From Micromonospora sp. WMMD1102 (GTDB taxonomy: Bacteria > Actinomycetota > Actinomycetes > Mycobacteriales > Micromonosporaceae), in contig NZ_JARUBN010000001.1 of NCBI RefSeq assembly GCF_029626265.1, positions 4,901,001 to 4,965,000 on the forward strand: a DNA stretch of 64,000 bases. Direction: 5' to 3'. Shown here piece by piece: positions 13,689 to 28,687 of this stretch. The notes beneath the pieces are model-generated. The model was not told the DNA's origin and did no database searches. It saw only the letters and a program-made list of their open reading frames with translations. Both the position numbers and the translations under genes were made by a program. Numbering within the stretch: position 1 is the stretch's first letter; each line of letters opens with the position of its first letter.

Positions 13689-13700
13689 TTCCGGGGAGGA

Positions 13701-14186
13701 TCAGGCCAGCACGATGTTGTCCCCGTCGACGGTGACCTTCTTCTCCGGCAGCGGCTTGTTGGCCGGGCCGCCCTTGGGCGAACCGTCCGCCACGGAGAAC
13801 TTGCTGAAGTGGCAACTACAGTTGATCGTGCCCCCGTCGACCCCGGTCACCGGGCACTGCTGGTGGGTGCAGATCGAGCTGAAGGCCTTGAACTCGCCCT
13901 CGGTCGGCTGGGTGACCACGACCTGCTGGTCGGCGAAGATCTTGCCGCCGCCGACCGGGATCTCGCTCTTCTTGGCCAGCGGGGCGGCGGCGCCGCCCTC
14001 GGCCGGAGCGCTCGCCGAACCGCTGGGGGCCGGAGCGCCGCCGGACGGGCTGCTTCCGGTGCCGTCGAGGGCGTCGTCGTCGCCGGTGCCGCAGGCGGCC
14101 AGCACCACCGACACGCCCACCGCACCCGCACCCGCCAACAGCGCCCGGCGGGTCTGCGTGCCCGGCCCGGTCAGTTCGTCACTCAT
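13701..14186 (-). CDS. Secreted Rieske [2Fe-2S] lipoprotein-like protein
   Basis: 161 aa. The N-terminus has a twin-arginine motif ([13 protein letters not shown]) and a lipobox (VVLAAC, Cys near 32), then a Ser/Gly/Ala linker to about residue 70. The C-terminal Rieske fold has the cluster ligands CTHQQC and CSCHFSKF. It is probably a Tat-exported, lipid-anchored electron-transfer protein; the partner is unknown. Similar small Rieske proteins lie beside uvrA/uvrC in other actinobacteria. ATG 14184-14186. Confidence 0.85.
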
Positions 14187-14280
14187 GCCTAGCCTTCCTC
14201 TTCGGCGCCGCGCCCTGGTCGTCCGCGGCCACGTCCGAAGACACGGATATATCCACCAACCGGTTCAACCGGGACCGGGG

Positions 14281-17200: not shown

Positions 17201-17421
17201 ACGTCCGGCTTGTCCATCTGGCCGAGGAACTGCCGGGCGTACGACGACAGCGACTCGACGTAACGCCGCTGGCCCTCGGCGAAGATGGTGTCGAAGGCCA
17301 GGCTGGACTTTCCGGAACCGGAGAGCCCGGTAAAGACGATCATGGCGTCGCGCGGCAGGTCGAGGTTGACGTCGCGCAGGTTGTGTTCACGCGCGCCACG
17401 GATGATCAGTCGGTCGGCCAC
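14281..17421 (-). CDS. uvrA: Excinuclease ABC subunit A
   Basis: 1046 aa. Two ABC modules: Walker [11 protein letters not shown] near residue 33 and [10 protein letters not shown] near residue 645, with signature motifs [12 protein letters not shown] and [12 protein letters not shown]. Zinc sites include CPVCG and CEVCKG. UvrA scans DNA for damage and loads UvrB. The last 80 or so residues are an Ala/Lys/Thr-rich tail ([20 protein letters not shown]) beyond the usual end at about 960, probably disordered and DNA-binding. No clear LexA box was seen upstream. ATG 17419-17421. Confidence 0.97.
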
Positions 17422-17584
17422 TGTCCGCGCACTCCCGGGGAGGAAAAGTATGTTCTGTCCGATTTGCTGGCGCAGAGAAGCGCCTCGGCAACTCTAGCCC
17501 CGGGGTACGACAGTTTCCCGCGCCGTCAAATTCCCGCAGCTCAGCCGCGGCACCGCCATCGACCGACCGCGACCGAGCCCTGAC

Positions 17585-18655
17585 TCACCGCCCCGGACGA
17601 CCCCGACTCCGCTGCTCCTTGCGAATCCGCTTCCATTTGTACCGCTCCTCGGCGGCCAGCCGCGCGTCCCGTCGGCGTGTCTCGTACGCCACCTCGCGCT
17701 GGAGCTTCTGCCAACTCTCCCAGCGCCGCGGGCTCAGCTCGCCGCTCTCCAGCGCGATCTGCACCACGCACCCCGGCTCGCCCCGGTGCGCGCAGTCAGC
17801 GAACCGGCAGGCCGCGACGAGTTCCGCCACATCGGCGAAGGCCCGGTCCAGCCCGGCCGCCGCGTCCAGCAGACCCACCGCCCGCACCCCCGGGGTGTCC
17901 AGCACCGCTCCCCCGCCCGAAATCGGGATGAGTTGCCGGTGCGTGGTGGTGTGCCGGCCCTTACCGTCCACCCCGCGTACCCCCTGTGTCGTCATCACGG
18001 TCGCCCCGGCCAGGGCGTTCACCAGTGTCGACTTGCCGGCGCCGGAGGGCCCGAGCAGCGCCAGCGTACGGCCGGGCGCCACCCACGGGCGCAGCTCGGC
18101 CAACCCGGTGCCGCGCTGTGCGCTTACCGGCAGCACCGCCACGCCCGGGGCCGCCCGGCCGAGCTGGTCGGCCATCGCCGCCGGGTCGGCGACCAGGTCG
18201 CACTTGGTGAGCACCAGCAGTGGGGTGGCGCCGGACTCCCAGGCCAGCGCGAGCAGCCGCTCGATCCGGGCCACGTCCGGCGACGGGTGCAGTGGCTCGA
18301 CCACCGCCACGCCGTCCGCGTTGGCCGCCAGCACCTGACCGGTCGAGTCCTTGTCGGCGGTCCGCCGCACGATCGCGGTACGCCGGGGCAGCACCGCCTG
18401 CACCGTCAGCCGCCGGTCCGGCCAGTGCCGGACCAGCACCCAGTCACCGGCACACGGCAGGTTGGCCGCGTCCCGGGCCGCCGCGACCAGCAGGCCGCCG
18501 CCGAGACTGGCCCGCAGCGGCCCGCTCGCGCAGAGCACCGTGCAGATTCCCCGGTCGGCCCGGACCACCCGGCCGGGTCGGAGGTCGTCGCCGCGTTCGG
18601 GGTACGCCGCGGCCAGTGTCGCGTCCCAACCGAGGGACGCCAGATCGAAGGTCAT
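17585..18655 (-). CDS. rsgA: Ribosome small subunit-dependent GTPase A
   Basis: 356 aa. N-terminal OB-like domain, then a circularly permuted GTPase domain with motif order G4 (LTKCD), G1 (GPSGAGKSTLVN), G3 (LDTPGVR), the RsgA hallmark. A zinc site follows (CRFADCAHRGEPGC) and a basic C-terminus (YKWKRIRKEQRSRGR). RsgA helps mature the 30S subunit. The reading frame stays open upstream, but ATG 18653-18655 (MTFDLASLGWD) matches the normal start. Divergent from the MDMPI-like gene. Confidence 0.93.
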   Translation of the reverse strand: MTFDLASLGWDATLAAAYPERGDDLRPGRVVRADRGICTVLCASGPLRASLGGGLLVAAARDAANLPCAGDWVLVRHWPDRRLTVQAVLPRRTAIVRRTADKDSTGQVLAANADGVAVVEPLHPSPDVARIERLLALAWESGATPLLVLTKCDLVADPAAMADQLGRAAPGVAVLPVSAQRGTGLAELRPWVAPGRTLALLGPSGAGKSTLVNALAGATVMTTQGVRGVDGKGRHTTTHRQLIPISGGGAVLDTPGVRAVGLLDAAAGLDRAFADVAELVAACRFADCAHRGEPGCVVQIALESGELSPRRWESWQKLQREVAYETRRRDARLAAEERYKWKRIRKEQRSRGRPGR

Positions 18656-18875
18656 CTCAACCCTTGTCGTCAGAGGTGGATTCAGCAGTCGAATCCAGAA
18701 GTGGAAACGGTGACAACGCGCACGTCGTCCGCATGCCTCCCACCTCCTCACGCTCACGGGTGTGCCCTCGAACGGTAGGTCTGGTCCGGCCGGACCGAAA
18801 GCCAATTCCGGCTCCGCCACTCCCGGCGGAAGGCGTCCCGGCCCCGCCGACCGGCGACCGCTATCGTCGTGAGTC

Positions 18876-19631
18876 GTGACACTCGACCCACTCGCGCTGC
18901 TGCCCGAGGTGGACCGGGCGACCGAGCGGCTGTTGCGGACCGTCGACAGGCTCGACGACGCGGCGACCGGCGAACCGTCCCTGCTCCCCGGCTGGACCCG
19001 GGGCCACGTGCTCAGCCATCTCGCCCGCAGCGCCGACAGCCTGGTCAACCTGCTGACCTCGGCGCGTACCGGGGAGGACGTCCCGCAGTACCCGAGCCCG
19101 GCCGCCCGGAACGCGGACATCGCGGCCGGCTCGGCCCGGCCGGTCGGCACCCAGCTCGCCGACCTGCGGGACAGCGCCCGGCGCTTCGCCGAGGCGGCCG
19201 GTGAGCTGCCGGCACCGGCGTGGGCCGCCCAGGTCCGCTCGATTCGTGGGCTCCGCCCGGCCGCCACCCTGGTCTGGGCCCGGCTGCGCGAGGTGGAGGT
19301 GCACCACGTCGACCTCGACGCCGGTTACCGGACCGCCGACTGGCCGGACGCGTTCGGCCAGCGGCTGCTGCACGAGGTGGTGCACGACCTGGCCCACCGG
19401 GACGACCCACCCGCCCTGGTGCTGGTGCCGGCGGAGACCGGGCAACCGCTGACCGTGCACAGCGGCCGGGGCGGGCCGGTCGGCGTGCCGACGGCGGACG
19501 GCGGCCCGGAACTGCGCACCGTCGCCGGCCCGGCGCACGAGCTGGCGGGCTGGCTGACCGGCCGGAGCGGCGGCGACGGCCTGGTCGTCACGCCCGCCGG
19601 GCCGCTGCCGGCACCTCCGCCCTGGATCTGA
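18876..19631 (+). CDS. Maleylpyruvate isomerase/DinB-family mycothiol-dependent protein
   Basis: 251 aa. Residues 1-150 are the MDMPI N-terminal four-helix (DinB-like) domain: LLPGWTRGHVLSHLARSADSLVNLL and WARLREVEVHHVDLDAGY supply the conserved metal-ligand histidines. The C-terminal part resembles the MDMPI C domain. Such proteins use mycothiol as cofactor; the substrate here is unknown. GTG start at 18876. It is followed at 126 bp by an MBL-fold gene, a pairing common near uvrA in actinobacteria. Confidence 0.8.
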   Translation: MTLDPLALLPEVDRATERLLRTVDRLDDAATGEPSLLPGWTRGHVLSHLARSADSLVNLLTSARTGEDVPQYPSPAARNADIAAGSARPVGTQLADLRDSARRFAEAAGELPAPAWAAQVRSIRGLRPAATLVWARLREVEVHHVDLDAGYRTADWPDAFGQRLLHEVVHDLAHRDDPPALVLVPAETGQPLTVHSGRGGPVGVPTADGGPELRTVAGPAHELAGWLTGRSGGDGLVVTPAGPLPAPPPWI

Positions 19632-19757
19632 ACCCGCCGGACCCCCAGGCACCCGGCCCTCGACGGGACGACCCGACCTCTGGTTCGGCCCCGCCTCTCG
19701 ACGGGAACGACCCGACCCGCCCGACCCTGATCCGCCGACAACCCGGAGGCACCGAAG

Positions 19758-20411
19758 ATGAGTTACACCGGCAACGTCGCCGCCGACGGCCCGCCCGACG
19801 TACGCGAGCTGAGCGGCCTCACGGTCAGCAAGCTCTCGGTCGGCCCGATGGACAACAACGCCTACCTGCTGCGCTGCACCGCCACCGGCGAGCAGGTCCT
19901 GATCGACGCGGCCAACGAGGCGCCCCGGCTGCTGGAACTCGTCGGCGAGGGCGGGCTGGCCGCCGTGGTCACCACGCACCGGCACATGGACCACTGGGTC
20001 GCCCTGGAGGAGGTGGTGGCGAGCACCGGGGCCCGGTCGCTGGTGCACGCCGCCGACGCGGACGGCCTGCCGATCGACTCCGAGCCGCTCGCCGAGGGCG
20101 ACCGGGTCCGGGTCGGTGACCGCGAACTCGAAGTGATCCACATCGTCGGGCACACCCCGGGCTCCGTCGCGCTGCTCTACCGGGACGAGACGGACGGCCT
20201 CCACCTGTTCACCGGCGACTCGCTCTTCCCCGGCGGGGTCGGCAACACCGACCGCGACCCGGTGCGGTTCGGCTCGCTGATCGACGACGTGGAGCACAAG
20301 ATCTTCGACCGGCTGCCGGACGAGACCTGGTTCTATCCGGGACACGGCCGGGACAGCACGCTCGGCACCGAACGGCCGTCGCTACCGGAGTGGCGCGCCC
20401 GGGGCTGGTGA
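19758..20411 (+). CDS. MBL-fold metallo-hydrolase, glyoxalase II-like
   Basis: 217 aa. The metal motif is TTHRHMDHW (HxHxDH), further ligands are in HIVGHTPGS and FTGDSLFPGG, and the last His in YPGHGRDS. This is the dinuclear metal set of the hydroxyacylglutathione hydrolase group; in a mycothiol organism it may act on mycothiol thioesters (inference). ATG start; a direct sequence echo (CTCGACGGGA) occurs twice in the upstream gap without obvious meaning. Confidence 0.85.
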   Translation: MSYTGNVAADGPPDVRELSGLTVSKLSVGPMDNNAYLLRCTATGEQVLIDAANEAPRLLELVGEGGLAAVVTTHRHMDHWVALEEVVASTGARSLVHAADADGLPIDSEPLAEGDRVRVGDRELEVIHIVGHTPGSVALLYRDETDGLHLFTGDSLFPGGVGNTDRDPVRFGSLIDDVEHKIFDRLPDETWFYPGHGRDSTLGTERPSLPEWRARGW

Positions 20412-20464
20412 ACCCCCGGCGGGTACCGGGGATGGCGGCCGTTGGCGAGCTTGGCTAATGAGTG

Positions 20465-20478
20465 TAGCTTTTAAGCTA
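20465..20478 (+). promoter_or_regulatory. Palindromic site overlapping a start codon
   Basis: TAGCTT-TT-AAGCTA, a perfect 6-2-6 inverted repeat whose last base is the A of the ATG at 20478. It is A/T-rich in a G/C-rich context, so it probably acts as -10/operator of a leaderless gene. Confidence 0.5.
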
Positions 20479-21281
20479 TGACTGATACCCGGTATCTCCG
20501 CCGCCCGGAGGGGCGCATCGCGTACGAGCTGTGGGACGGCGACGGGCCGCTGGTGATCTGCTCCCCGGGGATGGGCGAACTGCGCCAGTCGTACCGGCTG
20601 CTGGCCCCGAAACTGGTCGCGGCCGGCTACCGGGTGGCGGTGCTGGACATCCGGGGACACGGCGACAGCGACACCAGCTTCTCCGGGTACGACGACGTGG
20701 CGCTCGCCAGCGACATACTCGGGCTCGCCGACGAACTCGGCGGGCCGGCGTACCTGGTCGGCAACTCGATGGGAGCCGGCGCCGCCGTGATCGCCGCCGC
20801 CGACGCCCCGGCCAAGGTACGCGGCCTCGTCCTGCTCGGCCCGTTCGTCCGGCAGCCCGCCGGCGCGGCAGTACTGAACCTGCTCTTCCGGATCATGCTC
20901 GTCCGGCCCTGGGGCCCGGCGGCCTTCCTCGGGTACTACCCGAAGTGGGTGCCCGGCACCAAGCCCGAGGGGTACGCCGAACACCTCGCCCGGGTCCGCG
21001 ACAACCTGCGCCGGCCCGGACACTGGCGGGCCTTCGTCCGGACCACCCGCACCTCGCACGAGCCGGCCCGGCAGCGGCTGCCCGAGGTGTCCGCCCCGGC
21101 CGTCGTGCTGATGGGTGCCGCCGACGTGGACTGGAAGGACCCGGCGGCCGAAGCGCACTGGATCGGCGAGCAACTGGGGGCCGAGGTCGTGATGCTGCCC
21201 GGCGTGGGCCACTTCCCGCAGGCCCAGGCCCCCGAGGCGGTGGCCGCCGCCGTGAACCGGCTGGTCGAGCAGGACTCCTGA
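20478..21281 (+). CDS. Alpha/beta hydrolase
   Basis: 267 aa alpha/beta-hydrolase fold. Oxyanion region LVICSPGMGELRQSYR, nucleophile elbow LVGNSMGAGAAV (Ser), acid in MGAADVDWKDP (Asp) and His in PGVGHFPQA. It is an esterase or epoxide hydrolase-type enzyme of unknown substrate. There is no ribosome-binding site; a palindrome overlaps the ATG, so expression is probably leaderless and repressor-controlled. No regulator gene adjoins it. Confidence 0.82.
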   Translation: MTDTRYLRRPEGRIAYELWDGDGPLVICSPGMGELRQSYRLLAPKLVAAGYRVAVLDIRGHGDSDTSFSGYDDVALASDILGLADELGGPAYLVGNSMGAGAAVIAAADAPAKVRGLVLLGPFVRQPAGAAVLNLLFRIMLVRPWGPAAFLGYYPKWVPGTKPEGYAEHLARVRDNLRRPGHWRAFVRTTRTSHEPARQRLPEVSAPAVVLMGAADVDWKDPAAEAHWIGEQLGAEVVMLPGVGHFPQAQAPEAVAAAVNRLVEQDS

Positions 21282-21469
21282 CCCCGGTGTGGACGCCTGC
21301 CGGCACCGGTGTGCCCGGTGCCGGCGAGCAGGCATTCCGGCCCGGAATCCGAAAGTGCCCGGGAAAGTCGAAAAAGATGTTGCCCGGTTACCGGAGTCAC
21401 CCCTACCGTAGTTACCACAGCGATCAACAAACCGACACCGAATCGACAGCGAGCGACAGGGAGCATCCG

Positions 21470-21598
21470 ATGTTGTGGCAGACCTCATCGCGAGCGTGGC
21501 GGCGACTGCCGTCCGGCTCGGCGGGTTGTGCCACGCTCGGGCACCCCGTCCTACGCAGCGCCGGCGAATGTGCCGAGCTGGGCGGCTGGCGGACGTAA
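21470..21598 (+). CDS. Possible small ORF, 42 aa, Trp/Arg/Cys-containing
   Basis: ATG at 21470 is preceded by GGGAG at 7 nt and the frame ends at TAA 21596-21598, 18 bp before a T-tailed terminator, so the unit looks like a complete small gene. The peptide begins MLWQTSSRAWRRLPSG and has two Cys and four Trp residues. It has no signal peptide and matches no family I know. About four-fifths of its codons end in G or C, a little lower than its neighbours. It could be a small protein, a leader peptide or chance. Confidence 0.45.
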   Translation: MLWQTSSRAWRRLPSGSAGCATLGHPVLRSAGECAELGGWRT

Positions 21599-21616
21599 CG
21601 CGAATCCATCGCGTCC

Positions 21617-21650
21617 ACGCCGCCCTCCCGGACCCGGGACCGGGCGGCGT
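21617..21650 (+). terminator. Rho-independent terminator before the tRNA array
   Basis: A 9-bp stem (21617-21625 with 21642-21650) is followed by TTCTCTT. It follows the small ORF. Confidence 0.75.
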
Positions 21651-21690
21651 TTCTCTTACCGTGCGCGTTCCTTGAGCACGCATGTTTTCC

Positions 21691-21723
21691 TGCCACGCAT
21701 TCTCTCTTTGCCACGCATTCTCT
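21691..21723 (+). repeat. 15-bp direct repeat upstream of the tRNA array
   Basis: TGCCACGCATTCTCT occurs at 21691-21705 and again at 21709-21723 (period 18). It lies just ahead of the first tRNA and may be part of the array promoter. A TTGAGC -35-like element is at 21672-21677. Confidence 0.5.
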
Positions 21724-21744
21724 TCCGCCATGCACGATCCGCAC

Positions 21745-21817
21745 AGGGGTGTGGCGCAACTGGCAGCGCAGCGGCCTCCAAATCCGAAGGTTGCAGGTTC
21801 GAGTCCTGTCACCCCTG
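21745..21817 (+). tRNA. tRNA-Trp(CCA), weakened anticodon stem
   Basis: 73 nt. Acceptor AGGGGTG pairs with CACCCCT; discriminator G is as in canonical Trp tRNA. T-arm is GCAGG-TTCGAGT-CCTGT. The loop CTCCAAA gives anticodon CCA. The anticodon stem GCGGC/TCCGA has only three of five pairs, whereas normal bacterial Trp tRNAs have five. No CCA is encoded. It is either a decaying copy or a structurally relaxed tRNA. Confidence 0.75.
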
Positions 21818-21862
21818 CTTCTCCCCGGTCTCGACCGGCGGACACGGCACCAACTTGAGAAC

Positions 21863-21879
21863 TCCACAGTGGATGGCAT
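21863..21879. repeat. Left copy of 17-bp inverted repeat bracketing the tRNA array
   Basis: TCCACAGTGGATGGCAT is exactly the reverse complement of 24835-24851. Each copy also contains an internal palindrome (TCCAC/GTGGA). Confidence 0.85.
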
Positions 21880-21886
21880 TACCGAT

Positions 21887-21921
21887 GCCCGGCCGGCGCC
21901 GTACCACCGCGCCGGCCGGGC
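21887..21921. terminator. 13-bp hairpin ahead of tRNA-Pro(UGG)
   Basis: Perfect arms 21887-21899 and 21909-21921 with a 9-nt loop and no T-tract. It separates tRNA-Trp from the next tRNA and could be a processing or termination hairpin. Confidence 0.5.
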
Positions 21922-21925
21922 GGAT

Positions 21926-21998
21926 CCGGGGCGAGGGAGACGGCTGACCCGCCTGTTTTGGGTACAGGAGAAACCGAGTTCGATTCTCGGGTCCCGGA
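21926..21998 (+). tRNA. tRNA-Pro(UGG)
   Basis: 73 nt. Acceptor CCGGGGC/GTCCCGG (one G-T), D-arm with only GGG/CCC, anticodon stem CCTGT/ACAGG with loop TTTGGGT (anticodon TGG), T-arm CCGAG-TTCGATT-CTCGG, discriminator A. The short three-pair D-stem is unusual but the GG of the D-loop is kept. Confidence 0.8.
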
Positions 21999-22009
21999 CG
22001 AAACCATCC

Positions 22010-22083
22010 GCTCCGGTAGCCCAACGGCAGGAGGCAGCGCGCTCAAAACGCGCACAGTGTGCGTTCGAATCGCACCCGGAGCA
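22010..22083 (+). tRNA. tRNA with Leu(CAA) anticodon, short variable loop
   Basis: 74 nt. Acceptor GCTCCGG/CCGGAGC, anticodon stem GCGCG/CGCGC with loop CTCAAAA (anticodon CAA), T-arm GTGCG-TTCGAAT-CGCAC, discriminator A. The variable region is only ACAGT (5 nt), whereas bacterial leucine tRNAs have a long variable arm, so charging identity is uncertain. Confidence 0.75.
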
Positions 22084-22091
22084 TTTCCCGT

Positions 22092-22164
22092 GCGGCTGTA
22101 GCGCAGCTGGCAGCGCGCCACCTTGCCATGGTGGAGGTCCCGGGTTCGAATCCCGGTAGCCGCT
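22092..22164 (+). tRNA. tRNA-Gly(GCC)
   Basis: 73 nt with regular cloverleaf: acceptor GCGGCTG/TAGCCGC (one G-T), D-stem GCGC/GCGC, anticodon stem CCACC/GGTGG, loop TTGCCAT (GCC), T-arm CCGGG-TTCGAAT-CCCGG, discriminator T as in bacterial Gly tRNAs. Confidence 0.88.
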
Positions 22165-22214
22165 CCGAACACTTTCCAGAGTTCCGTGACGTCGACGCGA
22201 GAAGGAGGTTTCCG

Positions 22215-22655
22215 GTGGACGTCCTGGTCATCAACGCCGACCTCGGCCCGCTCCACCGGGTCAGTCTCCGGCACGCCGTACGGATGCTGGTCCGGCGGGT
22301 CGCCGAGGTGCACGAGGCCGTACCGGACCGGCTGATCGGGGTGTACCCGGTGCCGACCGTCGTCCGGCTGGTCAGGTACGTCGTCACCAGGTGGCGGTTC
22401 AGCTCGGGGCCGGCCTGGTCCCGGTCGGGCGTGCTCACCCGGGACGGCCGCCGGTGCGGCTACTGCGGGGGCCACGCCAGCACCGTCGACCACATCCTGC
22501 CCCGCTCCCGCGGTGGCCGGAACACCTGGACCAACACCGTCGCGTCCTGCGACGGCTGCAATCAGCGCAAGGCCGACCGCACCCCCGCCGAGGCGGGCAT
22601 GGTGCTGCGGTCGGCGGCGACGGTCCCGAGTTGGGCCGCGCTGACCCGGCGCTGA
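22215..22655 (+). CDS. HNH endonuclease embedded in the tRNA array
   Basis: 146 aa. The N-terminal domain begins MDVLVINADLGPLHRVSLRHAVRML, as in a large actinobacterial HNH group. The nuclease motif at about residues 80-125 has CGYCGG, then VDHILPRSRGG, NTVASCDGCNQRKADRTP: two zinc Cys pairs and the catalytic DH. GTG start at 22215 follows a strong AAGGAGGT. It is cotranscribable with tRNAs on both sides; related HNH genes are known inside actinobacterial tRNA arrays. It could be a homing-type enzyme or an RNA/DNA processing enzyme. Confidence 0.88.
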   Translation: MDVLVINADLGPLHRVSLRHAVRMLVRRVAEVHEAVPDRLIGVYPVPTVVRLVRYVVTRWRFSSGPAWSRSGVLTRDGRRCGYCGGHASTVDHILPRSRGGRNTWTNTVASCDGCNQRKADRTPAEAGMVLRSAATVPSWAALTRR

Positions 22656-22659
22656 CGGC

Positions 22660-22693
22660 CGGCCGGCGGATTCTCCCCCGCCGGCCGCCTTTT
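22660..22693 (+). terminator. Terminator-like hairpin after the HNH gene
   Basis: 10-bp perfect stem (22660-22669 with 22678-22687) followed by CCTTTT. The T-run runs into the 5' end of tRNA-Gln, so it may attenuate rather than fully stop array transcription. Confidence 0.65.
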
Positions 22694-22762
22694 CCGGATC
22701 GTCCAACGGCAGGACACCTGACTCTGGCTCAGGCGACCGAGGTTCGAATCCTCGTCCGGAAG
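22692..22762 (+). tRNA. tRNA-Gln(CUG)
   Basis: 71 nt. Acceptor TTCCGGA/TCCGGAA, D-stem GTCC/GGAC, anticodon stem CCTGA/TCAGG with loop CTCTGGC (anticodon CTG), 4-nt variable loop, T-arm CGAGG-TTCGAAT-CCTCG, discriminator G as expected for Gln. Confidence 0.82.
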
Positions 22763-22768
22763 CGCGAT

Positions 22769-22843
22769 GCCCTCGTGGCCCAATTGGCAGAGGCACCAGG
22801 TCGAGGGCCTGGTCACGTGCGCGTTCGAGTCGCGCCGAGGGCA
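22769..22843 (+). tRNA. tRNA with Leu(GAG) anticodon, C33, short variable loop
   Basis: 75 nt. Acceptor GCCCTCG/CGAGGGC, D-arm GCC...GGC, anticodon stem CCAGG/CCTGG, loop TCGAGGG giving GAG with C instead of U at position 33, variable TCACGT, T-arm GCGCG-TTCGAGT-CGCGC, discriminator A. Leu identity is doubtful because the long variable arm is missing. Confidence 0.7.
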
Positions 22844-22847
22844 CTTC

Positions 22848-22916
22848 GGGGTGGGTGCTGGTGCACAGCGTTGCCTTGCAAGCTTCGCGTGCGCGGTTCG
22901 ATCCCGCGTCACTCCA
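22848..22916 (+). tRNA. tRNA-Ala(UGC), truncated D-arm
   Basis: 69 nt. Acceptor GGGGTGG/TCACTCC contains G3:U70, the alanine identity pair, with discriminator A. The loop CTTGCAA gives anticodon TGC, agreeing with Ala. The anticodon stem GTTGC/GCTTC has two T-T mismatches and the D-region is very short. T-arm CGCGG-TTCGATC-CCGCG is intact. Confidence 0.65.
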
Positions 22917-22921
22917 CGCAT

Positions 22922-22994
22922 GCCCGGGTAGCCCAACGGTAGAGGCCGCCGGCTCAGAACCGGTGTGTTGCAGGTTCGACTCCTGCTCCGGGTA
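22922..22994 (+). tRNA. tRNA with Leu(CAG) anticodon, short variable loop
   Basis: 73 nt. Acceptor GCCCGGG/TCCGGGT with G-T wobbles at both ends, anticodon stem GCCGG/CCGGT, loop CTCAGAA (CAG), variable GTGTT, T-arm GCAGG-TTCGACT-CCTGC, discriminator A. It lacks a class II variable arm. Confidence 0.72.
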
Positions 22995-23006
22995 CGTCCG
23001 TTTCAA

Positions 23007-23079
23007 GCCCCTGTAGCTCAGTGGACAGAGCGCCTGGCTACGAACCAGGGAGTCGGAAGTTCGAATCCTCCCAGGGGCA
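23007..23079 (+). tRNA. tRNA-Arg(ACG)
   Basis: 73 nt. Acceptor GCCCCTG/CAGGGGC, D-stem GCTC/GAGC, anticodon stem CCTGG/CCAGG with loop CTACGAA (ACG), T-stem GGAAG/CCTCC with one A-C mismatch, discriminator A. Confidence 0.85.
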
Positions 23080-23085
23080 CGACAT

Positions 23086-23159
23086 CGGGACGTGGCGCAG
23101 CTTGGCAGCGCGCCGCACTGGGGGTGCGGAGGCCGTCGGTTCGAATCCGGCCGTCCCGA
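23086..23159 (+). tRNA. tRNA-Pro(GGG)
   Basis: 74 nt. Acceptor CGGGACG/CGTCCCG, D-stem GCGC/GCGC, anticodon stem CCGCA/TGCGG with loop CTGGGGG (GGG), T-arm GTCGG-TTCGAAT-CCGGC, discriminator A. C1:G72 is as in bacterial Pro tRNAs. Confidence 0.87.
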
Positions 23160-23223
23160 CTTCGACAGGGTCGCCGCAGCCGGCGACGACGACTATCGTC
23201 TGCCCGACGAGACCGAGAGGATC

Positions 23224-23970
23224 ATGGTGCCGAACCCCACCGAACTGCACAAGGTCAACGCGCTGGTGCAGGGCTTCAAGCCGCAGGCCAAGCGGGAACT
23301 GACCGACGCGCACCGGCGTACTCAGAAGGCGCCGCCGCTGTCCGGGATCTCCCGGACCTACCAGCCGTTCGCCGACGACATCCGGGAGCAGTTGCCGCCG
23401 GAGTCGACCCGGGTGCAGTACACCGTCCAGGAGGTTCTCGACGAGGTCGCCACCACCATGGGTCGGCTCTTCGACCTCCAGTTCCTCCAGGACACCGGAA
23501 ACGCCACCGCCAAGGCCGACGTCGTGGTCGACGGCCGGACGCTGGTCCGGGAGGCACCGGTCACCTATCTGCTCTTCCTGGAGAAGCAGCTCGTCGACCT
23601 GCGTACCTTCGTCGACGGGCTGGCCACCCTGGACGCGGCGGAGCGGTGGGAGTTCGACCCCGACCGGGGCTGCTACGCGAGTACGCCGAGCCAGACGCAG
23701 AAGATGCGCAAGGTGCACCGCAACCACGTCAAGGCCGAGGCGACCGAGAAGCACCCGGCGCAGGTCGAGGTCTACACCGAGGACGTACCGGTGGGCACCT
23801 GGACCACGGTGAAGCTCTCCGGCGCGCTGCCGGCGGAGCGGGTCAAGCTGCTGCGCGGCCGGGTCGACAGGCTGCTGGAGGCGGTGAAGGTGGCCCGCGA
23901 GGAGGCGAACAGCAGCACCGTCGAGGACCGCACCGTCGGCGACGAGGTGTTCGGCTACCTCTTCGGGTAG
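23224..23970 (+). CDS. DUF7873-like protein inside the tRNA array
   Basis: 248 aa, soluble, no signal peptide. Conserved-looking blocks are GISRTYQPFADD, LPPESTRVQYT, AKADVVVDGRTLVREAPVTY, LLFLEKQLVDLRTF, VHRNHVKAEATEKHPAQVEVY and VAREEANSSTVEDRTVGDEVFGYLFG. From memory this matches an actinobacterial/actinophage family called DUF7873, whose function is not established. The start is ATG 23224 or the adjacent GTG 23227 behind GAGAGG. Its place between tRNA-Pro(GGG) and the permuted tRNA loci suggests a role tied to the array. Confidence 0.8.
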   Translation: MVPNPTELHKVNALVQGFKPQAKRELTDAHRRTQKAPPLSGISRTYQPFADDIREQLPPESTRVQYTVQEVLDEVATTMGRLFDLQFLQDTGNATAKADVVVDGRTLVREAPVTYLLFLEKQLVDLRTFVDGLATLDAAERWEFDPDRGCYASTPSQTQKMRKVHRNHVKAEATEKHPAQVEVYTEDVPVGTWTTVKLSGALPAERVKLLRGRVDRLLEAVKVAREEANSSTVEDRTVGDEVFGYLFG

Positions 23971-24051
23971 CCTCCCATACACCCCCGTGGAGCGGGGGTG
24001 GCGCGACGAGCGTCGAGACTGAGGCTGACCTGTCAGACTCATCGAAGGCGA

Positions 24052-24124
24052 CGGTTCCAGTGGAGGTTCGAGTCCTCCCCTCGGCACTCCGGGCCGAGGT
24101 GGCCCAACTGGCAGAGGCAGGCCG
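24052..24124 (+). tRNA. Candidate circularly permuted tRNA A
   Basis: The 3' half comes first: anticodon-stem strand CGGTT (24052-24056), variable CCAGT, T-arm GGAGG-TTCGAGT-CCTCC (24062-24078), acceptor CCTCGGC (24079-24085), A. After spacer CTCCGG the 5' half follows: acceptor GCCGAGG (24093-24099), TG, a D-arm like that of the Leu(GAG) array tRNA, A, then anticodon-stem strand GGCCG (24120-24124). The acceptor pairs 7/7; the anticodon stem pairs 5/5 with two G-T. The anticodon loop is split, so its sequence is unknown; candidate joins give GGC or GCC. Confidence 0.5.
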
Positions 24125-24200
24125 GCGCCGAGCAGGCTGAGACTATCGCTCCAGACTCAGCACCCCCACCCATCGCCAGACCTACCGACCACGACAATCT

Positions 24201-24270
24201 CGACGAGATGCTGGTTCGAGTCCAGTCTGCCGCTCTCCCTGCGGCGGTCGCTTAATGGCAAAGCACGTCG
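24201..24270 (+). tRNA. Candidate circularly permuted tRNA B
   Basis: 3' half first: CGACG (24201-24205), variable AGAT, T-arm GCTGG-TTCGAGT-CCAGT (24210-24226), acceptor CTGCCGC (24227-24233), T. Spacer CTCCCT. 5' half: acceptor GCGGCGG (24241-24247), TC, D-arm GCTT-AATGGCA-AAGC (24250-24264), A, CGTCG (24266-24270). The acceptor pairs 7/7 with one G-T, the anticodon stem 5/5 Watson-Crick, and D-loop GG and T-loop are canonical. No linear order gives a cloverleaf. The loop junction shares the short repeat CGAC; the anticodon is unresolved. Confidence 0.6.
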
Positions 24271-24327
24271 ACCGCAGACTGATCGTGGAGCTTAAACGCC
24301 GCTGGCGTGCGAACGGGTGGAATTCGA

Positions 24328-24360
24328 GGGCCCCCGGGGCAGGGCATACCCCGGGGGTCC
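24328..24360. terminator. 12-bp hairpin after the permuted tRNA loci
   Basis: Arms 24328-24339 and 24349-24360 (one G-T), loop of 9 nt. It divides the permuted loci from tRNA-Lys; a TTGACG motif at 24369 could start a new promoter, but no clear -10 follows. Confidence 0.5.
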
Positions 24361-24402
24361 GCCAACTCTTGACGAGCCCCCGCCTCGTGGCGGGACGTCC
24401 AG

Positions 24403-24475
24403 GCGCCGCTAGCTCAATGGTGAGAGCAACGCACTCTTAATGCGTGGGTTCGGGGTTCGAGTCCCCGGCGGCGTA
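24403..24475 (+). tRNA. tRNA-Lys(CUU)
   Basis: 73 nt. Acceptor GCGCCGC/GCGGCGT (G1-T72 wobble), D-stem GCTC/GAGC, anticodon stem ACGCA/TGCGT, loop CTCTTAA (CTT), T-arm CGGGG-TTCGAGT-CCCCG, discriminator A. Confidence 0.87.
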
Positions 24476-24477
24476 CT

Positions 24478-24549
24478 CGCGGGGTGGCGCAGTGGTAGCG
24501 CGGCGGCCTCATAAGCCGCAGGTCCCGGGTTCGACTCCCGGTCCCGCTC
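24478..24549 (+). tRNA. tRNA-Met(CAU), initiator-like 5' end
   Basis: 72 nt. Starts CGCGGGGTG like initiator tRNA; acceptor CGCGGGG against TCCCGCT leaves C1 opposite T72 unpaired. Loop CTCATAA gives CAT. The anticodon stem GCGGC/GCCGC lacks the three consecutive G-C pairs of true initiators, so the elongator/initiator assignment is open. T-arm CCGGG-TTCGACT-CCCGG. Confidence 0.72.
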
Positions 24550-24551
24550 CC

Positions 24552-24624
24552 GTTCCGGTAGCTCAGTCGGAAGAGCATCGCGTCGACATCGCGAAGGCCG
24601 CTGGTTCGAGTCCAGCTCGGAACA
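24552..24624 (+). tRNA. tRNA-Val(GAC), C33
   Basis: 73 nt. Acceptor GTTCCGG/TCGGAAC, D-stem GCTC/GAGC, anticodon stem TCGCG/CGCGA, loop TCGACAT giving GAC with C at position 33, T-arm GCTGG-TTCGAGT-CCAGC, discriminator A. C33 is very rare in working tRNAs. Confidence 0.75.
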
Positions 24625-24650
24625 CGTACGAGTCCAGCTCGGAACACGTA
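24607..24650 (+). repeat. 22-bp tandem duplication of a tRNA 3' end
   Basis: The unit 24607-24628 (T-loop end, T-stem, acceptor and 4 nt of trailer of tRNA-Val) is repeated exactly at 24629-24650, leaving an orphan tRNA 3' fragment. Confidence 0.9.
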
Positions 24651-24671
24651 CAGGTACCGCCGGTCGCCCGA

Positions 24672-24754
24672 GCGGGTGCGCCGACGTCGGAGAGTCGGGC
24701 CTGTCTGTAAAACAGGTGCCTCGCGCGCAGGAGGTTCGAATCCTCCCACCCGCA
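24672..24754 (+). tRNA. tRNA-Tyr(GUA)
   Basis: 83 nt class II tRNA. Acceptor GCGGGTG/CACCCGC, D-stem CCGA/TCGG, anticodon stem CCTGT/ACAGG, loop CTGTAAA (GTA), 13-nt variable arm, T-arm GGAGG-TTCGAAT-CCTCC, discriminator A. It is the only array member with a long variable arm, as expected for bacterial Tyr. Confidence 0.9.
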
Positions 24755-24759
24755 CGCCC

Positions 24760-24832
24760 GGCCTCGTCTCGTCCCCGGTGGGGCGCCCCGCCTGCAAAGC
24801 GGGTGATGCGGGTTCGACTCCCGGCGAGGTCT
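24760..24832 (+). tRNA. tRNA-Cys(GCA), irregular D-arm
   Basis: 73 nt. Acceptor GGCCTCG/CGAGGTC (one G-T), anticodon stem CCCGC/GCGGG, loop CTGCAAA (GCA), T-stem GCGGG/CCCGG with one mismatch, discriminator T. The D region is G/C-rich and does not form a standard D-stem. Confidence 0.75.
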
Positions 24833-24834
24833 CG

Positions 24835-24851
24835 ATGCCATCCACTGTGGA
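24835..24851. repeat. Right copy of 17-bp inverted repeat bracketing the tRNA array
   Basis: Exact reverse complement of 21863-21879; lies between tRNA-Cys and the last array tRNA. Confidence 0.85.
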
Positions 24852-24855
24852 TGCC

Positions 24856-24928
24856 ATGGGCGCGGGCGTTGGCTGCTCGGCCGCCACTCATTCTGGCGGT
24901 GTGCCCGGTTCGACACCGGGGGCCCATG
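24856..24928 (+). tRNA. tRNA with CAU anticodon (Met or Ile2), degenerate
   Basis: 73 nt. Acceptor ATGGGCG/GGCCCAT with a G7-G66 mismatch, anticodon stem CGCCA/TGGCG, loop CTCATTC (CAT), T-arm CCCGG-TTCGACA-CCGGG. The D-arm does not fold normally and position 37 is T. Could be Met, lysidine-modified Ile or a pseudogene. Confidence 0.6.
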
Positions 24929-24932
24929 ACTC

Positions 24933-24975
24933 GCCGGCCGGCGATGGTTGTGGTGACGGGGGAACGCCGGCCGGC
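24933..24975. terminator. Hairpin closing the tRNA array
   Basis: 11-bp perfect inverted repeat (24933-24943 with 24965-24975), between the last tRNA and the convergent SCO4848-like gene. Confidence 0.6.
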
Positions 24976-25012
24976 CCCGACCGCCCGGCCACGGCTCGGC
25001 TCCGGGAACCGG

Positions 25013-25264
25013 TCAGGGTCGCGGAGTGCGACCCGCCCGCCAGGCCCGTACGCCGAGGACGCCGACGGTGGTGCCGATCGCCAGGGACGCCGCGATCAAC
25101 AGCGCGTGCACCCAGAGGAAACCCGTCGGGCTGCCCTGCCCGATCTCCCCGGTCGACCACGCCCGGGCATCGTTCCAGATCGCGACGGCGAACCGGGGCC
25201 AGATCACCCAGGTCCAATCGCCGACCAGGACCAGGAAGCCGGCCCAAGGCCGCGACAACAGCAT
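25013..25264 (-). CDS. SCO4848-family small membrane protein
   Basis: 83 aa with two membrane spans: FLVLVGDWTWVIWPRFAVAIW and FLWVHALLIAASLAIGTTVGVLG. The starting LLSRPWAGF, the central acidic/Gly loop and the WVH motif fit the small actinobacterial SCO4848 family of unknown role. ATG 25262-25264 is chosen because the longer frame upstream is low-complexity. It is convergent with the tRNA array and 253 bp downstream of a DedA gene. Confidence 0.75.
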   Translation of the reverse strand: MLLSRPWAGFLVLVGDWTWVIWPRFAVAIWNDARAWSTGEIGQGSPTGFLWVHALLIAASLAIGTTVGVLGVRAWRAGRTPRP

Positions 25265-25404
25265 GGCAGCCCAGTATGCCAGCCGCGACCCGTGCCCCCG
25301 GGTGGCGCCGGCCGGCGGCCCCACCCGGCCGGCACCACCCGATCCCCCCGGTCCCCCCGCAAGCCGCCCGGCCGGCTCCGGCGCCCCCCGGTCTGCTCCC
25401 CACC

Positions 25405-25509
25405 CAGCCAGCTCGCCGCCCCCTGCCCCGCGGTCTGCTCCCGGCCCAGCCGGCTCGCCGCCCCCAGCCAGCTCGCCGCCCCCAGCCAGCTCGCCGCCCC
25501 CAGCCAGCC
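25405..25509. repeat. 18-bp simple tandem repeat
   Basis: CAGCCAGCTCGCCGCCCC or one-base variants at 25405, 25447, 25465 and 25483, plus a partial at 25501. It lies in the noncoding 25265-25517 gap, where I see nothing else. Confidence 0.85.
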
Positions 25510-25517
25510 CGGCCCGG

Positions 25518-26126
25518 TCAGCCCTGCACCGTCGAGCCGAGTCGGCGGCGTACCCCCAGCAGGACGACCCCGCCGAGAACTATCCCGACGCCCACCGTGC
25601 CGAGCAGCGCGAACGACTCCCCCGGCAACAGTCCGCCGAGCGAGCGGGCCAGGATGGCCAGCACCATGTAGAGGCCGGCCCAGAGCACCGCACCGATCGC
25701 CGCGAAACCCAGGAACCGCCGGTACGACATCCGCAGCCCACCCGCGGCCAGCGGCAGTACCGCGTTCAGTACCGGCAGGAACGGCGCCACCATCACCATC
25801 CGGCCCCCGCCGCTGCCGAGAATACGCTCGGCGGCCACCCAGCGTGCCTCCCCGATCCACCCCCCGGTACGGCTGCGCCGCAACCGGGCACCGAACCGCC
25901 GGCCGGCGAAGAAGGTGAGCGACCAGCCGCCGAGACAGCCGGCGATCACCGCCAGGAACGCCCCCAGACTGGCCGGCCTGCCCACCCCCACCGCGGCCAG
26001 TACCGCCACGTCACCGGGTACGAGTACGCCGAGCAGCGGTATCGCGTCCAGCAACATGACCCCGCCGAGCACCGTCAGGAAGATCCACGACGGCAGTTCC
26101 CCCACCTGAACCAGCCAGTCCGCCAC
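25518..26126 (-). CDS. DedA/SNARE-associated family membrane protein
   Basis: 202 aa. Hydrophobic segments plus the family motifs LVPGDVAVLAAVG, GCLGGWSLTFFAGRRFG and FLPVLNAVLPLAAGGLRMSYRRFLGFAAIG (DedA core). DedA proteins are inner-membrane transporters or scramblases, some flipping undecaprenyl phosphate. GTG 26124-26126 gives the family-like start ADWLVQVGELPSW; ATG 26160-26162 is an alternative. No strong ribosome-binding site is seen for either. Confidence 0.85.
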   Translation of the reverse strand: MADWLVQVGELPSWIFLTVLGGVMLLDAIPLLGVLVPGDVAVLAAVGVGRPASLGAFLAVIAGCLGGWSLTFFAGRRFGARLRRSRTGGWIGEARWVAAERILGSGGGRMVMVAPFLPVLNAVLPLAAGGLRMSYRRFLGFAAIGAVLWAGLYMVLAILARSLGGLLPGESFALLGTVGVGIVLGGVVLLGVRRRLGSTVQG

Positions 26127-26408
26127 GTCAGGAACGTTACGGAGGTGGCGGCATCCGGACATCCGGGGCGAGCCCTGGTTGGCGGCACGGGCGACCCTGA
26201 GCCGATCTAGGGGTGACTCCGCGCCGTCCGGCGTAGGCCGACGGACGTCCCCGCTCGCCGGAGGTCGACCCGACCCACCGGAGGCCGACCCGACCGGCCG
26301 GAGGTTGGTACGACTCCCGACTTCCGCCCGCACCGGCTATCCCGGGAGGCTACTGTCGGTGGCGTACAGGGCGGGCCACGCACCAGGCGCGCCGCTAAGG
26401 AGACACCA

Positions 26409-26612
26409 ATGGCAACCGGAACCGTCAAGTGGTTCAACTCGGAAAAGGGCTTCGGCTTCATCGAGCAGGACGGCGGAGGACCGGACGTGTTCGTCCACTA
26501 CTCCGCGATCGCATCGTCCGGCTACCGGGAGCTGAACGAGGGACAGAAGGTCGAGTTCGACGTCACGCAGGGCGAGAAGGGTCCACAGGCGGCTAACGTC
26601 CAGCCGCGCTGA
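26409..26612 (+). CDS. Cold-shock protein, CspA family
   Basis: 67 aa. RNP1 KGFGFIE and RNP2 VFVHYSAI of the single cold-shock domain; start [14 protein letters not shown]. It binds single-stranded nucleic acid as RNA chaperone. AAGGAG precedes the ATG. Its last 20 bp overlap the 3' end of the convergent MFS gene. Confidence 0.95.
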
Positions 26613-27867
26613 CCAGCTCGGGCCGCGCCGGGTGGGCCGGTACGGCCGGCTCCTCCGGCAGGTCACGGCGCTTGCGCAGGGGGCCGAACAGCAGGATCAG
26701 TCCGGTCAGTGCCAGCCCGCCGGTGAGTACCCACATGGCCGGGCGGAGGCCGAGTGCCGTACCGAGGGCGCCGGTGAGCACCGCGCCGAGCGGCATCGTG
26801 CCGAGGTTGACCACCTGGATGGTCACGCTGACCCGGCCGAGCAGCCGGTGCGGCACGTACGCCTGCCGGAAGCCGGCCTTGATCACGTTTCCGGCCACCA
26901 CTCCGGCACCGATCACCACCCCGGCCAGCACCACCAGCCCGAGCCGGGCTCCGGGGGCGGTCAGCGGGATCAGCAGGCCGAACGGTTCCGCGCCGAGGGC
27001 GCAGAGCAGCAGCGCGCGGGCACTGCCGAGGCGCCGGGACAGCGCGGTGGCGACGGCGGCTCCGACGACCCCGCCCGCGCTCATCACGGCGACAAGTGCG
27101 CCGACCGTGCCCGGGCCCAGCCCGACCTCGCGGACCAGGAAGACGACCAGGATCGCCTGGTAGCCGATCAGCCCGAGGTTGCTGACGGCCCCCCAGACGG
27201 TGAGTACCCGCAGGTAGGGGTCGCGGGCGGTGAAGCGTACCCCCTCGGCGATCTGCTGGCCGAGACCCGCGTCCAGATCGGCGGCCCGGCGTGGCTCCGG
27301 GCGCCGGATCGAGAGCAGGCAGGCGGCCGAGCCGAGGAAGCCGAACACGTTGACCAGCAGTGCGGCCGCCGCACCGAACAGGTTGGCCAGCAGTCCGGCC
27401 ACACCCGGCCCGGCCACCTGGGCCACCGCCTCGGTGCCCTGGAGCTTCGCGTTCCCCTCGGCCAGGTCGGCCCGGTCGAGCAGGGTGGGCAGGTAGACCT
27501 GGTACGCGGTCTTGAAGAAGACGCTCACCGTTCCGCCGGCCAGCGCGACGGCCAGCAGGTGCCCGACGCTGAGTACGCCGAGCCAGCCGGCGACCGGCAC
27601 ACTGGCGAAGAGCAGCGCGGCGACCAGGTCGCAGGTCACCATCACGGGCCGGCAGCGCAGCCGGTCCACCAGGGCGCCGGCCGGCAGTCCGACCAGCAGC
27701 CAGGGCAGCCAGGCGGCGGCGGTCAGCAGCGCGACCTGGAAGGTGCTGGCGCCGAGGGTGGCGACCGCCACCAGCGGCAGCGCCACGCTGGTGACGCTGG
27801 CCCCGAAGGTGCTGCCGCCCTGGCCGATCCAGAGCAGCCGGAAGTCTCGTTGCCGGAGCAAACTCAT
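26593..27867 (-). CDS. MFS transporter, DHA3-like exporter
   Basis: 424 aa, about 12 membrane segments. Starts [35 protein letters not shown], with loop motif [21 protein letters not shown] 27865-27867 follows GAGGAGG. It lies 85 bp after an ArsR regulator on the same strand, and is probably an efflux pump under its control; substrate unknown. Its stop lies inside the cold-shock gene on the other strand (20-bp tail overlap). Confidence 0.83.
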
Positions 27868-27952
27868 TTTTCCTCCTCGTCCGATGGCCCGCTGGCCGCG
27901 CTCGACCCGCGCCCGGCGGCCGGGGGGCGGCGGGCGCAGGGGTCGGGCTGGC

Positions 27953-28525
27953 TCAGGGTTGGGCCGGGACGCCGTAGGCGAAGAAGAAGACGGGGCCGCG
28001 GTGCTGCCCGTCGTCGGGTAGCTCCCGATCGCCCCAGCGGGAGAGCAGGGCGTGCAGCTCGGTCTCGAACTCGACCAGTTCGTCCGGGGTGAACCGCAGC
28101 CAGCGGTCGGTGGAGAAGGGCGCCTCCGCCCAGGCGGCCCGCTGCTCCTCCCCGCTGGCATGCCAGTCCCGGACCAGGCCGACCTGGCGGTCGAGGTTCA
28201 GCGAGACGGCCGCCTGCTGCACGGCCTCGCTGGCCGGGTCGTCGGCGAAGTCGGCGGCGGACCAGCGCAGGCCGGACGAGACCAGCCGCCACCAGCGCTC
28301 CCGGCGGTCCCGGGCCAGTTCCGGCGCCTCCGCCACCAGGTCGGCGGCGGCGAGCACCCTGAGGTGGTGGCTGACGTTCGCCACCGCCTGTCCGGTGCGT
28401 TCGGCCAGCGTGCTGACGGTGGCCGGGCCGTAGACCTTCAACACGTCCATCAGACGTCGGCGTAGCGGATGGGACATCGCGGCCAGCACCCGGGAGTCGG
28501 TCACCTGGCGGACTTCTCGCTTCAT
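27953..28525 (-). CDS. ArsR-family winged-helix regulator
   Basis: 190 aa. Winged helix at residues 10-75 (MSHPLRRRLMDVLKVYGPATVSTLAERTGQ, VANVSHHLRVLAAADLV). The C-terminal helical region includes RWLRFTPDELVEFETELHALLSRW, typical of the HTH_20 group next to MFS pumps. ATG 28523-28525. A perfect 44-bp palindrome begins 18 bp upstream, almost certainly its operator, so it likely represses itself and the MFS gene behind it. Confidence 0.87.
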   Translation of the reverse strand: MKREVRQVTDSRVLAAMSHPLRRRLMDVLKVYGPATVSTLAERTGQAVANVSHHLRVLAAADLVAEAPELARDRRERWWRLVSSGLRWSAADFADDPASEAVQQAAVSLNLDRQVGLVRDWHASGEEQRAAWAEAPFSTDRWLRFTPDELVEFETELHALLSRWGDRELPDDGQHRGPVFFFAYGVPAQP

Positions 28526-28542
28526 GCGCTCAGCCTCACACA

Positions 28543-28586
28543 TGCAACCACTGTTGTGCAACAGCTGTTGCACAACAGTGGTTGCA
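28543..28586. promoter_or_regulatory. Perfect 44-bp palindrome, ArsR operator
   Basis: Left arm 28543-28564 is the exact reverse complement of 28565-28586. Half-sites GTGCAAC/GTTGCAC repeat, so two dimers may bind side by side. It sits between the divergent ArsR and epimerase genes and could control both. Confidence 0.85.
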
Positions 28587-28687
28587 CAGTTCTGGCGGTG
28601 CTGACCGGCAGATATCGACCGGAGACCGGGTTCGGCTGATAGCGGAAGCGCTCGGCACGTCCTACCGAGCCGATCTAACGTGACGTC

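Follow-up and report, generated by a model that had tools for sequence, protein, structure and literature searches.

Can a bacterial chromosome carry a transfer RNA (tRNA) gene whose two halves have traded places? This question is raised by a 64,000-nucleotide (nt) stretch of Micromonospora sp. WMMD1102 (contig NZ_JARUBN010000001.1, positions 4,901,001 to 4,965,000, forward strand; hereafter the window, whose own numbering is used throughout), in which an earlier note, made from the sequence alone, had described a circularly permuted tRNA gene. Our analysis confirmed the permuted tRNA-like fold at 24201-24270, which by far exceeds chance expectation. It is part of a conserved, covarying region of ~340 nt (24019-24360), located directly downstream of a gene for a DUF7873 protein and containing two permuted tRNA-like modules, A and B.

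Two permuted modules within one conserved region

Upon reordering, the halves at 24201-24270 pair just as had been described: the acceptor in 7/7 positions (one G-T), the D-stem in 4/4 with GG in its loop, the anticodon-like stem in 5/5 (a sixth pair, T24200-A24271, is possible) and the T-stem in 5/5, this last stem also including one G-T. In the linear order, ARAGORN calls no tRNA at 24201-24270, nor anywhere else from the end of DUF7873 (stop at 23970) up to the tRNA that follows at 24403. The extent, on the other hand, had to be revised: the fold is present, but the reported positions span only one module (B) of a larger conserved element (Table 1). The "locus A" implied by the same note presumably corresponds to module A, the sister of B.

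Table 1. Features of the DUF7873 locus in window coordinates; paired strands are separated by a slash.
Feature	Position	Strand	Basis
tRNA array, 14 tRNAs, with the DUF7873-RNA unit inside	21745..24833	+	ARAGORN
DUF7873 (PF25283) protein gene	23224..23970	+	Pfam, 329.6 bits, residues 51-291 of a 292-residue frame
GC hairpin CCCCC/GGGGG, directly 3' of the DUF7873 gene	23982..23998	+	sequence
Domain A	24019..24160	+	pairing counts, 48 sequences
Domain A, helix P1	24019-24027/24152-24160		
Domain A, helix P2	24036-24041/24138-24143		
Module A, permuted tRNA-like	24047..24129	+	scan, covariation
Module A, anticodon-like stem	24047-24054/24122-24129		
Module A, T-arm	24062-24078		
Module A, acceptor strands (7-nt linker)	24079-24085/24093-24099		
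Module A, D-arm	24102-24118		
Domain B	24166..24320	+	pairing counts, 53 sequences
Domain B, helix P1	24166-24171/24315-24320		
Domain B, helix P2	24174-24179/24302-24307		
Domain B, helix P4	24189-24194/24283-24288		
Module B, permuted tRNA-like fold	24200..24271	+	sequence, covariation, R1 model
Module B, anticodon-like stem	24201-24205/24266-24270		
Module B, T-stem (T-arm 24210-24226)	24210-24214/24222-24226		
Module B, acceptor 3' strand/5' strand (linker 24234-24240)	24227-24233/24241-24247		
Module B, D-stem (D-arm 24250-24264)	24250-24253/24261-24264		
Terminal GC-rich hairpin, 12 base pairs, probable terminator	24328..24360	+	predicted fold

Relatives were examined in the best 80 of 368 bacterial and the best 80 of 312 viral loci, the viral set holding some duplicates. 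In the 420 nt after DUF7873, a strict scan (T-stem 5/5, acceptor 7/7, D-stem at least 3) returned 3.81 modules per kilobase (kb) across the 80 bacterial loci. Its background was 0.0016 per kb (one hit) in the remainder of the + strand and zero on the opposite strand, and Markov shuffles gave 0.0015 per kb (one hit). For the 80 viral loci, the density was 2.70 per kb behind DUF7873 versus 0.038 and 0.005 in the two controls and zero in shuffles.

Pairing was then counted in alignments of 53 out of 62 candidates for domain B (alignment A4; L009, two sequences of L187, L133, L142, L180, one of L162 and both of L123 were omitted because they were near-duplicates, misassigned or outside the range) and 48 out of 59 candidates for domain A (alignment A3; 11 near relatives and others were dropped by hand), both candidate lists being confined to linkers of at most 12 nt and to rows less than 93% alike. 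In domain B (40 pairs), 84.6% of the cells were paired, compared with 65.6% upon shuffling and 39-49% when slid, and none of 500 shuffles attained its covariation of 0.534 (shuffled, 0.201). Domain A (35 pairs) reached 87.1% paired cells versus 74.8% and a covariation of 0.327 versus 0.131, again with 0/500 shuffles as high. The comparison of homologues for compensatory changes, proposed earlier as a check, hence came out in favor of the fold: the pairing strands co-vary and do not drift at random. The percentages for the acceptor (100%), T- (99.6%) and D-stem (97.6%) of domain B are inflated because these stems were selection criteria, although the double changes in them were not required by the selection. 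Helix P2 of domain B (CGCCGG/CCGGCG in relatives), which was not selected for, showed 97.5% paired cells, and all six of its pairs underwent double changes. P1 followed with 78.7%, the anticodon-like stem with 71.3%, and P4 with 49.3% in the chosen register, while RNAalifold favors an adjacent one. In domain A, P1 and P2 were paired in 86.7% and 82.5% of cells, and the two parts of the anticodon-like stem in just 48% and 78%.

Unpaired elements are conserved, too. The 3'-side bulge of domain A (TATCGCTC at 24144-24151 in the window) matches TNTYGCTC in 46/53 cases (0.3 in shuffles), a second bulge motif, ATCGA, occurs in 41/53 (0.9 in shuffles), and TTAAA of domain B in 50/53 (2.5 in shuffles); the domain B motif of the window is CTTAAACG at 24291-24298. 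A terminal hairpin with a GGNTA loop is found in 40/54 relatives versus 1.85 in shuffles, the loop of the window not being an exact match. A covariance model, R1, built from 45 of the 53 domain B sequences (A5), assigns 103.4 bits to module B of the window, which is itself one of the 45 training rows. Some modules have acceptor linkers of just 3-4 nt, and module A is absent from L042, L044, L047 and L088, where the outer strands of domain A are kept, as would be expected of a modular scaffold.

Linkage to DUF7873 in bacteria and phages

At least one module (T-stem 5/5, acceptor 7/7) follows DUF7873 in 79/80 bacterial loci, and 49 of them contain two under the strict rule. The one bacterial miss is a Chloroflexi metagenome-assembled genome (L022), with a 58%-identical DUF7873 and no module within 4 kb on either side. 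Among the viral loci, a looser scan detected a module in 67/80, R1 in 68/80 (E ≤1e-8) and either approach in 75/80; of the five left without a module (L136, L137, L160, L181 and L189), the last two extend 128 and 0 bases past the gene. When applied to loci outside its training set, which include close and in some cases identical relatives of training loci, R1 gave 52 matches in 53 bacterial loci (84-128 bits, E ≤1e-8; none in L022) and 51 in 63 viral loci (E ≤1e-8). Frames overlapping DUF7873 aside, no neighboring frame (at least 110 residues, within 4 kb) was common to more than 16/80 loci. The position of the RNA varies in some viral loci, where it lies 0.6-1.2 kb behind DUF7873 (L129, L134, L191), on the opposite strand (L147) or immediately ahead of the gene (L175). 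The RNA is hence not merely a 3' tail of the DUF7873 gene.

DUF7873 is present in actinobacteria, Chloroflexota and phages. Of 296 Actinomycetota genomes sampled, six encode it, that of the window (G000) counted, and all six have an R1 match 210-299 nt behind the gene, five at >100 bits and G171 at 47.6 bits. The best listed R1 match in a genome without DUF7873 scored 50.3 bits (L205, L206), and tandem identical ordinary tRNAs reach 50.4 bits (L230). Since G171 falls below both, its case rests on adjacency to the gene and on the lack of ARAGORN tRNAs (L208). Besides, DUF7873 occurs in 73 of 50,697 phage records (hosts include Gordonia, Arthrobacter, Rhodococcus, Vibrio, Rhizobium, Klebsiella and Pseudanabaena), 4 plasmid records and 312 stretches of viral contigs. 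All nine phage stretches retrieved contain a module by R1, the match in L110 being weak (18.1 bits) and that in L109 lying ~2 kb away. Within ~3 kb, ARAGORN places tRNAs in 41/80 viral and 21/80 bacterial loci. In a Klebsiella jumbo phage, an annotated tRNA-Sup-TTA (L112:3495-3579), on which ARAGORN agrees, shares positions with a permuted module and has probably been misannotated. Gordonia phage Phendrix encodes a tmRNA (transfer-messenger RNA; 89 bits, L104:587-1115) in its tRNA cluster, upstream of DUF7873.

As to the protein, DUF7873 has 5,677 homologues at E 0.001, with none functionally named among the 120 listed. An AlphaFold2 model from 74 sequences (predicted local distance difference test score, 91.8; predicted template modeling score, 0.69) is made up of long helices plus an extended beta hairpin (162-177, 186-201), and fold comparison of this model returned no clear match to any fold. 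Polar and aromatic residues invariant in 74/74 sequences are Y52, N99, K127, K169, T180, H183, Q186, W199 and N235. No relationship to TROVE, the domain of Ro60, was apparent from sequence: Pfam reports only DUF7873, and hhalign assigns a probability of 0.2% to the alignment with the TROVE protein of L205.

Comparison with tRNA genes, Y RNAs and other tRNA-like RNAs

Like the permuted tRNA genes of red and green algae and archaea, the element has swapped halves, a short linker between the acceptor strands and covarying stems. In those genes, the ends are joined into a normal tRNA, according to Soma 2014 (PMC3978253). Whether joining would yield an anticodon loop here was judged from U33 in a set of 242 modules, among them a few false positives of the loose viral scan; the count was taken over 97 A modules and 134 of the 145 B modules. 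Joining produces U33 in 26/134 B and 20/97 A modules, and in 12/85 B and 10/55 A modules with a 5-base-pair stem, as compared with 13/15 of the real tRNAs of the window. As U33 is rare and no anticodon-loop pattern arises, the permuted fold is probably not a tRNA gene. In further distinction from the algal and archaeal genes, the anticodon-like stem continues into outer helices that display covariation of their own and conserved bulges, and the whole unit accompanies DUF7873. The proposal of a permuted tRNA gene is therefore not upheld, and with it goes the assumption that a circularization or cleavage path must exist, for none is needed if the element is not read as a tRNA gene. Nor is the permuted order new to bacteria, as the earlier note had assumed: the Rfam model of YrlA, a bacterial Y RNA and partner of Ro60 (Rsr), has the same arrangement, and permuted forms of tmRNA are described in PMC3978253.

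The start of the linker nevertheless carries features of tRNA ends. Where the linker measures 6-30 nt, all 54 bacterial A modules carry A at position 73, and C74 is found in 72/72 bacterial B modules (111/120 B modules overall). NCCA occurs in 30/87 A and 30/120 B linkers, compared with 4.6 and 3.1 in shuffled linkers, and U at -1 in 30/87 and 60/120, compared with 14.8 and 35.0. The U -1 excess stems mainly from viral A linkers (19/33, expected 7.3), being small or within the shuffle range elsewhere (11/54, expected 7.5; 30/72, expected 19.0; 30/48, expected 16.2 with a shuffle maximum of 31). This enrichment argues that the linker start is under selection, which would fit mimicry of a tRNA end and also cleavage of the linker.

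The closest parallel is YrlA, whose Rfam model (RF02553) aligns over its full length with both modules (module B, 31.7 bits, 24188-24292 to model positions 1-114; module A, 20.9 bits). Both RNAs run from T-arm to 3' acceptor, closing loop, 5' acceptor and D-arm within a stem leading to an outer helix, and both adjoin the gene of one protein. YrlA is described as tethering Rsr by its base stem, binding PNPase through its tRNA-like domain and being modified by DusA and TruB (PMC8394870). Within 23971-24390, no Rfam family reached its cut-off, the 69 bits required for YrlA included. However, this cut-off is a weak test that does not separate the two RNAs, since the TROVE-linked RNAs of L205 and L206 also remain below it (42.5 and 41.2 bits). 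These two loci (of G193 and G023, respectively) each contain two permuted modules and no ARAGORN tRNA ~1 kb from a TROVE match; the frame beside the L205 modules is TROVE (45.5 bits), the TROVE match of G023 lies within L206, and their RNAs are likely actinobacterial Y RNAs missed by Rfam. More generally, in 7/8 TROVE genomes the best R1 match (35-50 bits) lies 0.3-1.3 kb from the TROVE match, with no ARAGORN tRNA there in six and a tRNA-Arg between the two matches in G161. The genome of the window has 0 matches to TROVE/Ro60 (PF05731), and G171 likewise has none; the other 4/6 DUF7873 genomes do encode TROVE, yet at a separate locus with a lower-scoring module of its own 0.9-1.3 kb away. Two pairs thus seem to exist in parallel, one of Ro60 and a Y-like RNA, the other of DUF7873 and the RNA under study. 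Unlike YrlA, this RNA has DUF7873 instead of TROVE as its likely partner and holds both modules in one ~340-nt region, even though two modules per locus are also seen at L205 and L206. Given that the link to Ro60 fails, we class it as Y-RNA-like in its working, not as a member of YrlA.

Two further RNAs bear comparison. Like tmRNA, the element combines a tRNA-like part with a larger body and occurs in bacteria and phages, but it has two heads, each closed by a linker; the tmRNA model had no match in 23971-24390 at E up to 1 and only fragmentary or low matches in modules of relatives. Akin to GOLLD in the tRNA arrays of phages and mycobacteria, it is a large (here, predicted) non-coding RNA within such an array, GOLLD being described as co-located with tRNA clusters (PMC9569102). 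A search of the window for GOLLD returned nothing at E up to 5. To our knowledge, its structure comprises no permuted tRNA modules.

Two modules, covariation, conserved outer helices and bulges, and a tight linkage to DUF7873 in bacteria and phages are what sequence comparison shows; from these, we predict that both modules reside on one transcript and that this transcript is made. Our preferred interpretation, which we hold to be fairly probable, is that the ~340-nt region is one structured RNA that, together with DUF7873, likely forms a Ro60-independent, Y-RNA-like ribonucleoprotein whose tRNA-shaped heads would recruit tRNA-recognizing enzymes. By analogy, the RNA may thus act as a scaffold: DUF7873 would bind its body at the conserved bulges, as Ro60 does at the base of Y RNAs, and the heads would imitate the elbow and acceptor of a tRNA, onto which enzymes of tRNA modification or of tRNA ends, or else an exoribonuclease such as PNPase, may dock. 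In the bacterial host, the outcome might be RNA or tRNA quality control; in phages with tRNA clusters, it might be a protected tRNA pool. Splicing to a working tRNA has no place in this interpretation. Two observations speak against this interpretation: DUF7873 is acidic (isoelectric point, 5.5), which mildly disfavors simple electrostatic RNA binding, and a plain energy fold of the window sequence alone is no better than that of shuffles. If it is correct, DUF7873 would be a second protein family, besides Ro60 with its Y RNAs, to travel with permuted tRNA-mimic RNAs. The family would gain a candidate RNA partner and Rfam a new family, permuted tRNA modules would appear as a recurring building block, and phages with tRNA clusters could offer a way into how attack on tRNAs is handled.

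Among the alternatives, the RNA might be a tRNA decoy, brought by phages and kept by bacteria, whose heads absorb tRNA-cutting or -modifying defense enzymes while DUF7873 stabilizes it. The phage and viral-contig records of DUF7873 and the more frequent tRNAs near viral than bacterial loci agree with this, as does a nuclease-inhibitor role of YrlA suggested by others (PMC7790460), and we grant it a minor chance. It sits less well with the conservation of the body and DUF7873 in Streptomyces chromosomes, which exceeds the needs of a decoy, and with heads devoid of an anticodon loop. That loop is the usual target of tRNA-cutting nucleases. Alternatively, RNase P and tRNA 3'-end enzymes may open both linkers, leaving two CCA-tipped heads on one DUF7873-bound body that might undergo charging or be admitted to the ribosome in the manner of a double tmRNA; this would fit the conserved position 73 and C74, the NCCA excess and U -1 in viral A linkers, but we regard it as unlikely.

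That the RNA is instead a divergent YrlA member proper, bound by Ro60 where the host has it and merely neighboring DUF7873, appears rather improbable: the full-length matches to the YrlA model and the TROVE genes of four DUF7873 genomes would be accounted for, but not the two genomes without a TROVE match, the separate TROVE loci with their own modules or the near-complete linkage to DUF7873. Still less credence is due to a true pair of circularly permuted tRNA genes whose ends are joined into an anticodon, with RNase P and RNase Z excising the linker. The permuted halves, the covarying acceptor, T- and D-stems, the linker-start features (position 73, C74 and NCCA) and the presence of RtcB-family genes in the genome of the window suit this view, against which stand the missing U33 and anticodon-loop pattern, the helices and bulges conserved past the anticodon-like stem, linkers as short as 3-4 nt and the absence of module A from some loci. 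Finally, in tandem ordinary tRNAs the T-arm and 3' acceptor of one copy followed by the 5' acceptor and D-arm of the next look permuted; pairs of this kind match R1 (L207, L209, L228-L230), and the RNA of the window does lie within a tRNA array. Such chance mimicry is very improbable here: ARAGORN calls no tRNA at 24019-24320, the acceptor halves form 7/7 pairs and show covariation, and R1 assigns 103 bits, about double what the best tandem pair inspected attains. Moreover, 59/80 bacterial loci are devoid of ARAGORN tRNAs over an interval reaching from 3.3 kb upstream to 2.6 kb downstream of the DUF7873 stop.

The locus in its genome

The window has a GC content of ~0.72 and belongs to a genome of 8.9 Mb. 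For DUF7873, the ATG at 23224 is our choice of start, the longest open frame beginning at 23092 and the frame used in searches at 23206. GC hairpins like the one directly behind the gene are also present in several relatives, as judged by eye. The closest relatives of the locus, among the best 80 of 368 bacterial loci, belong to Plantactinospora (L009-L011). The same assembly includes a second version of this locus (L210-L216), in which an insert of ~116 kb separates window positions 13693-20411 from 20221-28679, the two flanks sharing a 191-base overlap (20221-20411). A Resolvase/Recombinase frame is located at the right end of the insert (L216:9969-11519), which resembles a prophage or an integrative and conjugative element and is present in that version of the locus, not in the version of the window.
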